A stretch of DNA of 64,000 nt. It comes from Longitalea arenae (GTDB taxonomy: Bacteria > Bacteroidota > Bacteroidia > Chitinophagales > Chitinophagaceae). This document shows, one piece after another, positions 12,057 to 47,331 of the stretch (position 1 is the first letter of the stretch; the number at the start of each line of letters is the position of its first letter). Where the stretch lies: assembly GCF_016924755.1 (NCBI RefSeq), contig NZ_JAFFJX010000006.1, forward strand, positions 248,001 to 312,000, in the 5' to 3' direction. The notes under the pieces were generated by a model, which was not told the DNA's origin, made no database searches, and was given only the letters and a program-made list of their open reading frames with translations. Both the position numbers and the translations under genes were made by a program.

Positions 12057-12067
12057 GACTGACAAAT

Positions 12068-12198
12068 GTGATAATTCGATAATTTGATAATTCGATAATG
12101 ACCTCCCGCCAGGCATTCTGAGAAAAGGCGATCCGCACGAGCAGGCATCGACTATCCCTGTAATTCATTATCACATTATCAAATTATCACATTATCAC
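12068..12198. repeat. 8-nt-period inverted array, family NKGATAAT (D1)
   Basis: Four left units gtgataat, tcgataat, ttgataat and tcgataat (12068-12099) face four right units attatcac, attatcaa, attatcac and attatcac (12167-12198) across a 67-nt spacer. Over 33 nt (12068-12100 against 12166-12198) the arms match at 29 positions; all mismatches fall in the two variable bases of units 2 and 4. It fills the gap between the convergent RDD and DUF5362 stops. Confidence 0.8.
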
Positions 12199-12203
12199 AT
12201 TGT

Positions 12204-12686: not shown

Positions 12687-12737
12687 ATTCAGTGTTTTTG
12701 GTTAATGGAAGGCGGATGACATACAAGATAGGCAAAT

Positions 12738-12950
12738 GATTTCTTGATTTCGGGATTTCTTGATTTCGGGAATTCGGGATTTCGGGAATTCGGGATTTCG
12801 GGATTTTGCGATTTCTTGATTTCTTGATTTTGTGGTTTCTTGATTGCGAGATTTCCCGATTCCAATTCGGGATTTAGAGATCTTGGGATTTTTAAATCTC
12901 AAAATCTCTAAATCTCAAAATCAGAAATCTCTAAATCAGAAATCAGCAAT
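12738..12950. repeat. 8-nt-period inverted array, family GATTTCNN (B1)
   Basis: Sixteen consecutive 8-nt units run without a phase break from 12738 to 12865 (GATTTCTT, GATTTCGG, GAATTCGG, GATTTTGC and so on; the last two bases vary most). After a short break come more units, then a right arm of AAATCTCN/AAATCAGN words (12893-12950) complementary to the left arm. It sits between two co-directional genes. Low-complexity pseudo-reading frames inside it are not genes. Confidence 0.8.
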
Positions 12951-12953
12951 CAT

Positions 12954-14432: not shown

Positions 14433-14754
14433 GTTTTATTTTTTATGGAACTCTTTGACTGCTTTAACTCCTTTGACTGATTTGACTCTTTTGACCACTT
14501 TGACCAATCTGGTTCCTTTGACTGATATCGCTATTTTTTAATTATCATTTAATCCCAACCCAATTCCCCTTCCGTCCTCATTATCAGGTGCTTTACCGTC
14601 AAACTTTAACAATCGCCATGCAATAATTTCCTCGTTGCGGCTGTCTTTTTATTGTAACTTTAATTCGGAAAAACGCAAAAGTAACATTTAGCGTTGTAAA
14701 ACGAGTTGTGAATTGGTTTCAAATTATTAGTCAGCATAACGTAAAACCATAACT
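14433..14754. other. 322-bp upstream region between proS and a lipoprotein gene
   Basis: This divergent gap holds the 9-nt-period array at 14452-14523. Past it is AT-rich sequence with a TAACTTTA box near 14656 that could be a weak -7 element for the plus-strand gene. A GTTG about 17 nt upstream is a poor fit to the usual 19-nt spacing. No RNA gene or small reading frame was convincing. Confidence 0.4.
14452..14523. repeat. 9-nt-period array, family NNTTTGACY (E1)
   Basis: Eight consecutive 9-nt units keep phase from 14452 to 14523: tctttgact, gctttaact, cctttgact, gatttgact, cttttgacc, actttgacc, aatctggtt and cctttgact. No inverted second arm was found nearby. The array starts 20 bp upstream of the proS start codon, so it probably overlaps the proS promoter or leader. 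Confidence 0.75.
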
Positions 14755-18559: not shown

Positions 18560-18770
18560 GATTTCTGATTTCGGGATTTCTGATTTCCTGATTTCGGGAT
18601 TTTGCGATTTCGGGATTTTGGGATTTCTGATTTCTGATTTCTGATTTAGAGATTTCTGATTTCTGTTTGGATTAACGATCAGGCATTGGTTTCAAAAATA
18701 ATTAACTCTCCAGATCTCAAAATCTCTAAATCTAAAAATCTCTAAATCTAAAAATCTCTAAATCAAAAAT
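18560..18770. repeat. 7/8-nt-period inverted array, family GATTTCNN (B2)
   Basis: The left arm (18560-18667) mixes 8-nt units such as gatttcgg and 7-nt units such as gatttct. The right arm (18711-18767) repeats aaatctct-aaatcta three times and is complementary. The about 45-nt spacer is unique sequence. It sits between miaA and the pRiA4b-like gene, both on the minus strand. It is close kin to the arrays at 12738 and 33473. Confidence 0.78.
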
Positions 18771-21235: not shown

Positions 21236-21246
21236 CTATTTAGTTA

Positions 21247-21402
21247 CGGTTACCGGTTACAGGTTGCAGGTTCCAGGTTTCAGGTTACAGGTTACGGGGT
21301 CCAAGTTCCAGGTTTCAGGGTCCATGTTTCATGGCTCGCATGCGTAATTTCCAATTGGCTGTGACATGTTTTCCTTGTAACCTGTACCATGCAACTTGTA
21401 AC
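21247..21402. repeat. 7-nt-period inverted array, family AGGTTNC (A4)
   Basis: Twelve consecutive heptamers keep perfect phase from 21247 to 21330. Most read AGGTTNC, and the sixth base takes all four values while the others are nearly fixed. The right arm has ttgtaac, ctgtacc, atgcaac and ttgtaac (21375-21402). It lies between the co-directional glycosyltransferase and cca genes, directly behind the putative cca promoter box. Confidence 0.82.
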
Positions 21403-25592: not shown

Positions 25593-26504
25593 TTGGAAGG
25601 GAAAAAACATACTGTCACACTAGCGGGATTTCTCATTACGATAATTGGCTCCATTCTGTTTTCAACAAAAGCCATCATAGTAAAAGTGGCTTTTGCCAAC
25701 ACGTCTATGGACGCCCTGACCCTGCTGATGCTGCGGATGACTTTTTCCCTTCCCTTTTATCTGGGCGCCATCTGGTTCGCCCGCCAGGAAGGCCTTAAGC
25801 CATTGACCACCCGCCAATGGATGGGAGTGATCGGCCTCGGTCTTTTTGGCTATTACCTCAGTAGTTTATTTGATTTTACCGGACTGCAATATGTTACAGC
25901 CGGGCTCGAACGGTTAATTCTCTTCCTCTACCCCACTTTTGCTGTACTTATTAATTCGATTGTTTTTAAACAACCCGTTGTTCGCACGCAACAGATCGCT
26001 TTACTGCTCACCTATACCGGCATTGGTATAGCCTATCTTGGCGAGCTGCGCATCGATGTCAGTAACCCCAATTTCATCTGGGGCAGTTTTCTCATCTTCC
26101 TTTGTTCAATTACCTACAGTATATACATCGTTGGCAGCGGCCGCATGATACCAACGGTAGGCGTCACCCGTTTTACGGCCTACGCCATGTTATCTTCCAC
26201 CGCCGGTGTATTTGCGCATTTTATCTTCGGCGGGGGCAGCCTGCAGCTCTTGCAGGAAGCTGGTACACATGTATGGTATGGCATCTTACTCGCTGTTCTA
26301 GCAACGGTATTACCCACATTCATGCTGTCGAATGGCATGAAACGCATCGGCTCTAACAATGTGGCCATTATTTCGGCGATCGGTCCCGTTTCAACGATCA
26401 TCCAGGCGCATTTCATCCTGGGCGAAAAGATCTTTCCCGCACAAATTGCCGGTACGGTACTGGTTATTATCGGCGTTATTCTTATTGGCTGGAAGCGAAA
26501 CTGA
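25593..26504 (+). CDS. EamA-family (DMT superfamily) transporter
   Basis: A 303-residue inner-membrane exporter-like protein with ten helices in two EamA repeats (first about 8-140, second about 155-300). The first helix is GFLITIIGSILFS and the last ends VLVIIGVILIGWKRN. The only suitable start is TTG at 25593, 9 bp past the dapD stop in the same frame; the first in-frame ATG would remove the first helix. The reading frame has no other in-frame start between the dapD stop and the TTG. Genes of this type export metabolites or amino acids, so a link to DapD products is possible but is inference from adjacency. Confidence 0.88.
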   Translation: MEGKKHTVTLAGFLITIIGSILFSTKAIIVKVAFANTSMDALTLLMLRMTFSLPFYLGAIWFARQEGLKPLTTRQWMGVIGLGLFGYYLSSLFDFTGLQYVTAGLERLILFLYPTFAVLINSIVFKQPVVRTQQIALLLTYTGIGIAYLGELRIDVSNPNFIWGSFLIFLCSITYSIYIVGSGRMIPTVGVTRFTAYAMLSSTAGVFAHFIFGGGSLQLLQEAGTHVWYGILLAVLATVLPTFMLSNGMKRIGSNNVAIISAIGPVSTIIQAHFILGEKIFPAQIAGTVLVIIGVILIGWKRN

Positions 26505-26509
26505 AGAGC

Positions 26510-26879
26510 GATGTGCTGATTTGCTGATCTGCTAATGATCGATGTGCTGATTTGCTAATCATCGATGTGCTAATTTGCTAATGTGCTAATGTGCTAATCA
26601 TCGATGTGCTGATTTGCTAATCATCGATGTGCTAATTTGCTGATTTGCTAATGTGCTAATCATCGATGTGCTGATTTGCTGATCTGCTAATGATCGATGT
26701 GCTAATTTGCTAATGTGCTAATGTGCTAATGGAATACAGTAAGATCCTGCCTATAGGAACTGTATTCTAATCAGCAAATCAGCACATCAGCACATTAGCT
26801 AATTGTAGTTTTAATCAGCACATCAGCACATCAGCACATTAGCTAATTGCTGTCTTAATCAGCACATTAGCTAATTGCT
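26510..26879. repeat. 8-nt-period, block-structured inverted array, family RATNTGCT (C1)
   Basis: The left arm (26510-26730) is built from words a GATGTGCT, b GATTTGCT, c GATCTGCT, d AATTTGCT and e AATGTGCT, with separators X AATGATC and Y AATCATC. It reads abcX, abY, adeeY, abY, adbeY, abcX, adee. The spacer contains a 9-bp perfect hairpin (26732-26740 with 26759-26767). The right arm (26768-26879) repeats complementary atcagcac/attagcta words. The right arm overlaps the stop codon of the gene at 26871. Confidence 0.88.
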
Positions 26880-27806
26880 TCCACATCGGCTGCGGTAATA
26901 CTGACAGGATTTTTTAGCAGGCGCTTCTGCTTTCTTCGGTTCTGCCACTATTTTGGGTGCAGCTTTAACAGGTTCTTTTGCTGGTGCTACTGCCCCGGCA
27001 GGTGCAGCCTGTTTTTCTTTTTTAAAATATAGCGGCATACCTACGGTGATATTCCAGGCAGCAGCGGATGAAGACAATTGGGTATTGAGTTGTTTATTGT
27101 CCAATGCAGTGGTCAGCGTTTCAGTGCCCAAATTACCGATGCCTTTCAGGTATTGTACCCCGATCACATACTTGCTCACATTGCCTTTAGCGAAAGCAAA
27201 ATGAACGCCGGTGATAAAAGCTGAAGTCCAGTTACCGGCGCTGTACTGGTACACCGTTTCACCCGCCTGCATGGCGCTGCTGAGAGCTGTTTGCGGATTC
27301 GGAACAAAAGCCATTCCGGCATAAGGTTGAATGCGCAGGTTCATGACTGGTTTTTGCGCAACATTCGCCTTAGCGTGATTTAAGCGCGCCCCGCAGGGAC
27401 TTAACCTGGGTGCGGGCGTTTCGCTGGAAGCTTGTTTAACCGTTTTACCCAATGCAATGGGTTTGCTGCTAAGCTGGTAACCCGCTTCAAGGCGTAGTGT
27501 CCAGTCGCCATGAGAAGAACTGAATTCTTTATCGCCGGTCTCCGGATTGGTGAACATATAGTTAACCACTGAACGGTTGCTCGCTATCCCTACGAACGGA
27601 CCATGTGCTTTGTTGAAGAGGTAATCCATTCTCAGCGCAACCTGTGGGGCGAAATTAGACCCCAGGGCATTAATACCGGTAGTGCTGTTGTACTGTACAC
27701 AATTAAAGGCTTGTTCAATACCAACTCTGGGTGTAATGGAGAGTTGCGCATTCGTTGCATACCCACAGGCAACGAATACCAGGCTGAGTAACGCTGCTTT
27801 TCTCAT
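26871..27806 (-). CDS. Outer membrane beta-barrel protein (OmpA-barrel-like), odd C terminus
   Basis: A 311-residue protein with a signal peptide (MRKAALLSLVFVACGYATNAQ), then alternating strands of an eight-stranded-type outer membrane barrel (about 22-265). A Pro/Ala/Lys-rich tail follows (about 270-300, with AAPKIVAEPKKAEAPAK). The last residues are KKSCQYYRSRCGSN, unlike the rest. At a run of six A (complement of 26910-26915), a shift of one base would give a more natural end, AKNPVSITAADVEAIS, stopping at TAA a few bases away. The stop lies inside the adjacent repeat array. This may be a frameshift, a sequencing error, or real divergence. Function unknown. Confidence 0.75.
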   Translation of the reverse strand: MRKAALLSLVFVACGYATNAQLSITPRVGIEQAFNCVQYNSTTGINALGSNFAPQVALRMDYLFNKAHGPFVGIASNRSVVNYMFTNPETGDKEFSSSHGDWTLRLEAGYQLSSKPIALGKTVKQASSETPAPRLSPCGARLNHAKANVAQKPVMNLRIQPYAGMAFVPNPQTALSSAMQAGETVYQYSAGNWTSAFITGVHFAFAKGNVSKYVIGVQYLKGIGNLGTETLTTALDNKQLNTQLSSSAAAWNITVGMPLYFKKEKQAAPAGAVAPAKEPVKAAPKIVAEPKKAEAPAKKSCQYYRSRCGSN

Positions 27807-33472: not shown

Positions 33473-33680
33473 GATTTCTTGATTTCTGATTTCGAAATTT
33501 CTGATTTCGGGATTTCCGATTTCGGGATTTCGGGATTTCTTGATTTCGAGATTTCGGGATTTCGGGATTTCTGATTTCGGGATTTCTGATTTCGAGATTT
33601 CGGGATTTCTTGATTTGCAGTTAATGGGAAAAATCAAACCGCGGCAAATCCCAAAATCTCTAAATCCCGCAATGAGAAAT
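33473..33680. repeat. 7/8-nt-period inverted array, family GATTTCNN (B3)
   Basis: The left arm has about nineteen gatttctt/gatttcgg/gatttct/gatttcga units (33473-33619). A short right arm of complementary aaatccc/aaatctc words lies at 33646-33680. It begins at the base after the DUF92 stop and ends a few bases from the stop of the convergent DinB-like gene. Low-complexity pseudo-frames inside are not genes. Confidence 0.78.
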
Positions 33681-43535: not shown

Positions 43536-44165
43536 ATGAATGTTATGCTTGCACGTATTACCTGTATCGCTTTATTATTGGGCGCCCTGGCAGGCGGTAC
43601 CGGTTGTAAAAAAACGCTCACCGCCCCCGATGCTGAAAATGATCCATCGACCAGGGCTAATCCTACGCCGGAAGCTACGATCACCTGGTACCTCGTAAGG
43701 GTTTCGAACCCCAGTGCCGACCAATTAGATGCCTATGACCGCATCACCGCCGCCATGAATGCTGCCGTGGCGATGTACAACCAGCAAACTACTTATTGCA
43801 GTGGCAACCTCCGGGTAGAATACAATACCAGCGTGCCCACCGCCGATGGAAATGTAAATGGAACCATCCGTTTCGGCGCCAACAGGTCATACATGAACCA
43901 GCGAACCGCCATGCACGAAATTGCGCATACCCAGGGTGTGGGTACCACAGCCCGCTGGACGCAGCTGGTGGTAAATGGAAAATATACGGGCGCTTATGGA
44001 CTGGCCATGCTGAGGAGCTTTGTAGGTGAAAGCCCTACTGCCACCTTAAATGCCGATGGCCATTCTTTCTGGCCATATGGATTGAATTATAACAGTGAGT
44101 GGAGTACCGTGAATGGTCAACGGCATGCCCGCCTGGTAGGCGCTTTCCAACGGGATGGCGTATAA
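43536..44165 (+). CDS. Secreted lipoprotein with HExxH zinc-protease motif
   Basis: 209 residues. Signal peptide with lipobox GGTGC (Cys about 24). A Ser/Thr/Pro-rich linker follows, then a domain with MNQRTAMHEIAHTQGVG, in which His127-Glu128 and His131 form an HExxH zinc site and Gly134 follows as in HExxHxxG proteases. The usual third ligand of metzincins (His about position 137) is absent, being Thr there, so it may be a gluzincin-like or degenerate enzyme. The end has NADGHSFWPYGLNYNSEW. Short for a protease, so partner or pseudo-enzyme roles are possible. Confidence 0.72.
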   Translation: MNVMLARITCIALLLGALAGGTGCKKTLTAPDAENDPSTRANPTPEATITWYLVRVSNPSADQLDAYDRITAAMNAAVAMYNQQTTYCSGNLRVEYNTSVPTADGNVNGTIRFGANRSYMNQRTAMHEIAHTQGVGTTARWTQLVVNGKYTGAYGLAMLRSFVGESPTATLNADGHSFWPYGLNYNSEWSTVNGQRHARLVGAFQRDGV

Positions 44166-44473
44166 GTAATTCACCAGTCGTTTAAAAAGCTTCAGGTAGC
44201 CATCCGCCGCCTGGCACTGACCGGGGCCGATGGCATACCTGATCGCTCTGTTAAACAACCATATGTATGAATCAGGGTATCTTTATTTTAATAACAGGTC
44301 TCTTTATTTTACTGGCAGCCGGTACCTGCGTCAGGCTCATTATTCATCGGCATTAGCCTATGGAGAAATGGGGAATTCGATCTTTCCCCCATTTACTCCA
44401 TTGGTATGTAAACTTTCACTGTTAACTATTAAAAAGCGACGTTGATAAGCGCAACTGCAGTAAGATGCTGTTA
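44166..44473. other. 308-bp gap, no feature recognised
   Basis: Lies between the convergent HExxH lipoprotein gene and the sugar dehydrogenase gene. No strong terminator hairpin with T run and no short-period array were seen, although most other convergent gaps upstream of 44 kb carry one. Confidence 0.4.
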
Positions 44474-47247: not shown

Positions 47248-47331
47248 GCCCAGGTGGCGAAATTGGTAGACGCACTGTGTTCAGGTCGCAGCGCTCGCAA
47301 GGGTGTGCTGGTTCGAATCCAGTCCTGGGCA
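47248..47331 (+). tRNA. tRNA-Leu (anticodon CAG)
   Basis: 84-nt class II tRNA. The acceptor stem GCCCAGG pairs with CCTGGGC, with A as discriminator base. The D-arm has TTGGTAGACGC, the anticodon loop TTCAGGT gives CAG, the long variable arm GCGCTCGCAAGGGTGTG is leucine-like, and the T-loop reads GGTTCGAATCC. CCA is not encoded, consistent with the cca gene present. A promoter lies upstream and a terminator follows. Confidence 0.97.

Follow-up and report, generated by a model that had tools for sequence, protein, structure and literature searches.

Cyanobacteria reportedly carry short tandemly repeated repetitive (STRR) heptanucleotides, which Mazel et al. are said to have described in 1990 as degenerate words of 7 nt that stand in tandem between genes, in many copies. 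The kind of array studied here is already published for one heptamer in Xanthomonas (GGGAATC) and Nostoc (GGGGA(T/C)T), where the arrays are intergenic and form convergent inverted pairs (70 and 75 cases) (PMC4692102, 2015). They lie near or overlap stop codons, are under-represented between divergent genes and vary extensively in length between relatives. The G-rich word is on the coding strand downstream of genes and on the non-coding strand upstream of them, which amounts to inward reading. This polarity was framed by G-quadruplexes, and repeats able to form quadruplexes harbor transcript starts or ends more often than controls do; a role was not established (PMC4692102). Direct repeats of the heptamer TAACTGA occur in Beggiatoaceae, cyanobacteria and some Bacteroidetes, intergenic and patchy across distant genomes; they form long mixed arrays in some Bacteroidetes and lie mostly just upstream of starts in a Beggiatoaceae strain (PMC4679880, 2015). 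The BrickBuilt MITE/minisatellite of Porphyromonas gingivalis is an intergenic tandem repeat from the Bacteroidota whose ends are inverted; it has a 23-nt unit and a fixed leader and tail (PMC4596501). Our literature search, which reached few subscription papers, found nothing specific on octamer arrays of Bacteroidota.

We analyzed a window of 64,000 nt from Longitalea arenae (contig NZ_JAFFJX010000006.1, positions 248,001 to 312,000), in which an array of 8-nt words follows a transporter gene (Table 1). This array is the left of two inverted arms, and the slot that they form fits between two convergent stop codons, one of which (26871-26873, convergent gene) lies inside the right arm. The product of the convergent gene appears to be outer-membrane-protein-like. 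The combined slot folds at -154.8 kcal/mol with a z of -10.2. As in the inverted arrays of the Xanthomonas type, the slot holds two arrays that share their words in convergent orientation. The words themselves (GATGTGCT, GATTTGCT, GATCTGCT, AATTTGCT and AATGTGCT) contain no GG, and a G-quadruplex was ruled out for lack of G-tracts. An intrinsic terminator (a GC-rich hairpin followed by a U-tract) was not found at the center, since no T-tract follows the stem AATACAGT/ACTGTATT and the stem itself is not rich in GC. A known structured RNA was ruled out because Rfam gave no match over the array, its sole match in the window being a tRNA at 47248-47331. Further inverted word-array slots with the same inward layout use the GATAATNT and GATTTCNN vocabularies and are present in the window at 12065-12201, 12737-12951, 18560-18770 and 33473-33675. 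At 21243-21319 and 14449-14504, the window has arrays of GGTTACAG-type 7-nt and TTTGACTGA-type 9-nt words. The GGTTACAG-type words resemble the fission-yeast telomere word, a likeness that we take to be probably by chance.

Table 1. Features of the hairpin slot and its two flanking genes (window coordinates).
Feature	Position	Strand	Content	Basis
EamA-family transporter gene	25593..26504	+	Stop 5 nt before array	Pfam EamA 3.9e-31, ORF
Left arm	26510..26732	+	22 words, seven blocks, six separators, closing AATGG	Parse; TRF 62-nt unit
Block 1	26510-26540		abc, separator AATGATC	Script parse
Block 2	26541-26563		ab, separator AATCATC	Script parse
Block 3	26564-26602		adee, separator AATCATC	Script parse
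Block 4	26603-26625		ab, separator AATCATC	Script parse
Block 5	26626-26664		adbe, separator AATCATC	Script parse
Block 6	26665-26695		abc, separator AATGATC	Script parse
Block 7	26696-26727		adee, then AATGG	Script parse
Largest internal duplication	26538..26641	+	Exact 42-nt copies, offset 62	Self-comparison
Hairpin center	26731..26767	.	Inner stem GAATACAGT...ACTGTATTC, short loop	Sequence; fold
Right arm	26769..26877	-	Same words, opposite strand; 44-nt higher-order unit ending in AATTAGCTAAT	Sequence, TRF, parse
Convergent gene	26871..27806	-	311 aa, no Pfam match	ORF, Pfam search

Parsed by script from the raw sequence, the left arm is a run of eight-nt words (a to e) that fall without exception into the blocks abc/ab/adee/ab/adbe/abc/adee. 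Four of the six 7-nt separators are AATCATC and two are AATGATC, both of these after word c. The sequence-only reading had described the same words, blocks and separators up to the closing AATGG, and the script reproduced its parse: each block opens with word a, AATGATC is limited to positions after word c, and block 1 equals block 6, block 2 equals block 4, and block 3 equals block 7 up to the separator. When the 22 words were shuffled with block lengths kept, three identical block pairs were reached in none of 100,000 shuffles, and in ∼0.05% of shuffles once the first word was fixed as a; the chance of all blocks being a-initial is ∼2e-5 under word shuffling. The block pattern is far beyond what word shuffling yields by chance. 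Tandem Repeats Finder reports a 62-nt unit in 3.4 copies at 88% identity. The array sits within a 402,591-bp contig, and similar arrays are found in many independently assembled genomes (one genome per species).

The left arm contains near-exact multi-unit copies at constant offsets, as in a higher-order repeat made by segmental duplication. The longest exact copies, at 26538 and 26600, are followed by copies of 39 nt (26510/26665, offset 155), 38 nt (26561/26693, offset 132) and 35 nt (26584/26646, offset 62), and the arm slid by 62 nt against itself matches at 82% over its whole length. The simplest reading of the seven blocks is abc followed by a two-block unit in triplicate, (ab adee)(ab adbe)(abc adee), with small edits. 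This higher-order tandem repeat is likely to have arisen from a few local duplications in the left arm of the hairpin. In alpha-satellite higher-order repeats, multi-unit blocks are likewise re-duplicated with unit identity kept; the likeness is in pattern alone, as scale and organism differ.

The earlier reading had combined two claims, duplication of several words with unit identity kept and a second-level grammar with the separators as punctuation. The 42-, 39-, 38- and 35-nt copies bear out the first. The second did not hold: the separator junction TGCTAATSATCGATGTGCT has six matches in the 7.28-Mb genome, all six inside the left-arm array. Because the junction is found only there, the separators are not a general punctuation, and a genome-wide grammar is ruled out. 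Higher-order periods of at least 40 nt were detected in 23 of 291 word arrays (1.2 Mb surveyed), and these other arrays carry inter-word sequence different from the separators of the left arm. The block grammar in itself is ordinary higher-order duplication.

The sequence-only reading had named a lack of block conservation in relatives as its refutation, and across species this largely applies. In the nearest relative, TGATAAT words fill the 148-nt orthologous slot, from which the left-arm blocks are all missing, and eight further congeners have different content again; among ten congeners the slot is 18 to 998 nt long. A test for a binding protein had also been proposed from the sequence; the array would then be a binding platform, with a protein recognizing the words and the blocks spacing its sites. 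The word form is kept across loci and genomes (among the matches listed), which favors this reading, but the separators are private to one locus and orthologous slots swap to other vocabularies, and we consider a platform of this kind extremely improbable.

Turnover is not confined to this slot. In 167 conserved gene pairs, arrays were present in both species at 37, in the studied genome only at 16 and in its nearest relative only at 20. The TGCT word pattern has 159 matches in the studied genome, 15 and 6 in two congeners and none in seven, and the TGATAAT pattern has 78, 73, 39, 16, 9, 2 and 2 matches per genome and none in three. In one clear presence/absence case, the array starts exactly at a TAG stop and is missing from the relative. 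A MITE would carry fixed terminal inverted repeats and a target-site duplication; in presence/absence slots the arrays start at a stop codon, flank duplication was not recognized by eye, and no fixed ends were recognized. The same words recur in distant Bacteroidota (among the matches listed, with loci chosen by word pattern).

Genome statistics cover 1.2 Mb, of which 800 kb come from the studied genome and 400 kb from the nearest relative. Simple scripts called the genes and scanned for terminators, and the seeds used to group the vocabularies were picked by hand. Most tandem periods between genes are 7 nt (146 rows), 8 nt (121 rows) or multiples of these, with 6 rows at 9 nt; such a pile-up is expected of slippage with a preferred step. 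With a head-to-tail intergenic unit of ∼7-9 nt, the 8-nt words form a short intergenic tandem word array of the STRR or heptamer SSR kind, and their loci are dispersed, the word pattern giving 159 matches across the studied genome and its reversed control none. About a dozen vocabularies were distinguished, for example [AG]ATNTGCT, GATAATNT, GATTTCNN, GGTTACC, GGTTACA, AGTTCAA and GTTTGTG, and arrays built from them occupy numerous intergenic slots across the genus. Many TGCT and TGAT arms have the common suffix AATG(G/A)AATACAG at their inner end (G000, G003 and G004; e.g., L052 and L053).

The arrays are concentrated at gene 3′ ends. The share of gaps with a hairpin array is 19.6% between convergent, 6.9% between co-directional and 2.5% between divergent genes (p = 4e-5 for convergent against divergent), and the enrichment tracks the number of gene 3′ ends. 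Among arrays nearest a stop, 110 of 177 lie within 15 nt of it, compared with 19 of 111 within 15 nt of a start among those nearest a start; some arrays hold the gene's own stop in their first word. Inverted arms were found in 51 of 165 array gaps vs. 4 in re-paired controls. Intrinsic-terminator-like sites were detected in 8 of 47 array-bearing and 23 of 60 other convergent gaps (p = 0.019), a modest deficit obtained with a home-made scan and gene caller, which fits arrays substituting for terminators. The arms are not always the terminator, since some slots retain a conserved ordinary terminator between them. A conserved bidirectional intrinsic terminator at G000:C36 105894 (L066) and in the orthologous slot in G003:C38 is flanked by TGCT-word arms in one species and TGAT in the other. 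In Longitalea luteola (L150, 2879-2990), an ordinary bidirectional terminator, with a clear GC hairpin accompanied by A- and T-tracts, occupies the center between the same word arms. A small palindrome, CCCGC(A)GAGCGGGACAAGTTG, was seen within words from different vocabularies in the manner of an insertion (G000:C36 105894-106083 and 110115-110323, both L066, and 43825-44196, L063), and is possibly a REP-like mini-element landing in arrays.

Polarity of the arms is nearly fixed. The G+T-rich arm comes first in 46 hairpins and the A+C-rich arm in 2 (hairpins passing threshold), and elsewhere in Bacteroidota the ratio is 31:0 for word-pair arms, which were fetched by word pattern and, with several from one genome, are not all independent. 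The preferred inward sense holds by vocabulary (V1/V2 56:10, V3 35:9, V4 23:8, GTTTGTG 14:2), with V7 (TTGCCTT) pointing the opposite way (4:12); read inward, V7 words are not rich in T. A rival reading of the arrays is a translational stop fence, in which TGA or TAA in the 8-nt words would give stops in all three frames just past the gene. Arrays do adjoin stop codons, and the first word sometimes includes that of the gene itself; V1/V2 and several V3 words contain inward-sense stops. However, the stop-less vocabularies GGTTACC (23:8), GGTTACA (12:3) and GTTTGTG (14:2) are equally inward, which rules out the fence as a general cause and makes it a very unlikely explanation of the arrays.

Within a slot, the two arms agree in vocabulary and variant, and these switch together between species. 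The C/A variant of the words (TGCT or TGAT) correlates between arms in the studied genome (r = 0.71, permutation p = 0.002, 23 slots) and in the nearest relative (r = 0.955, p = 0.0006, 12 slots). Three orthologous slots, including that at 26510, have C on both arms in the studied genome and A on both in the relative; one of them has a single A word in the studied genome. Word-for-word mirroring between arms was absent, with 0 of 51 pairs at p < 0.05 and an observed score equal to the shuffle mean. Because arm order is no better than shuffled, exact pairing is neither copied nor selected at the level of word order. Word order shows no sign that one arm was copied from the other by fold-back; older copying scrambled by slippage is still compatible with this result.

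These observations also bear on purely neutral satellite growth, in which both words and blocks would come from slippage, be simply tolerated in intergenic 3′ regions and form a hairpin without function. The very fast turnover of the slot among the ten congeners, the unmatched word order of the arms and the private separators are in its favor. Against it stand the vocabulary and variant common to both arms of a slot, the excess of inverted arms over re-paired controls and the enrichment that tracks gene 3′-end number, and we regard it as rather unlikely.

Overall, we favor local duplication in a two-armed 3′-end hairpin array with a putative transcription-stop role as the probable explanation. 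The element consists of two inward-pointing arms of degenerate 8-nt words between the stops of two convergent genes. Slippage or unequal exchange may have made the blocks (offsets 62, 132 and 155 nt), and replication slippage would gain and lose single words as well as blocks. One vocabulary per slot could be maintained by template switching between the arms (quasi-palindrome correction) or by coarse selection for pairing, while slippage would scramble word order. Less certainly, the long RNA hairpin might act as a bidirectional transcription stop or as an mRNA 3′-end structure; a terminator or 3′-end role of the hairpin arrays is proposed here only tentatively. Near-identical words pair in many registers, so that gain or loss of blocks would be tolerated and sequence detail left free, which would explain the lack of conservation.

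The fixed inward polarity and the recurrence of the same words in distant Bacteroidota (among the matches listed) are not accounted for by slippage and hairpin selection alone. Both arms could instead be scars of end extension, broken 3′ ends having been extended with G-biased short words and joined, like head-to-head telomere fusions, to leave inward arms of one vocabulary. The polarity ratios of 46:2 and 31:0, the single variant per slot, the independent word order of the arms and clean presence/absence beside a stop codon are consistent with such scars. On the other hand, some arm pairs flank a conserved terminator and not a junction, no enzyme or template has been identified, and V7 words lack the inward T-richness; we consider this origin quite improbable. 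It is equally a long shot that this group of bacteria possesses a process which adds short, G-biased words to the 3′ ends of DNA, or some equivalent copying that respects polarity, so that slots are filled with inward one-vocabulary arms and rewritten in another vocabulary over short evolutionary times. If it were true, the polarity would be the footprint of a process common to the Xanthomonas heptamers and not of G-quadruplexes.

The difference of variant on both arms of orthologous slots, together with unmatched word order, constrains how arrays of this kind can arise. The genus has many presence/absence slots and slots with swapped vocabularies, which makes the function and spread of short intergenic repeats directly testable.

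Compared with known systems, the L. arenae arrays resemble cyanobacterial STRR at the level of 7-nt intergenic degenerate tandem words. BrickBuilt differs from them in its 23-nt unit and fixed leader and tail, as the L. arenae arrays have many vocabularies and no recognized fixed ends. The TAACTGA repeats are direct and lie near starts in the Beggiatoaceae strain, whereas the L. arenae arrays are mostly at 3′ ends and often have inverted arms; patchiness is common to both. With the Xanthomonas and Nostoc arrays they share the polarity rule, the inverted pairs and the proximity to stop codons. Those arrays use one G-tract word with G-quadruplex potential, whereas the arrays studied here draw on about a dozen vocabularies, most of them without G-tracts; since words that lack G-tracts obey the polarity as well, quadruplexes cannot be what causes it in general. 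L. arenae further differs from Xanthomonas and Nostoc in that vocabulary differs between orthologous slots and blocks are duplicated at a higher order. The many non-G-tract vocabularies, the variant switching and the block duplication are apparently the new aspects of this array kind.
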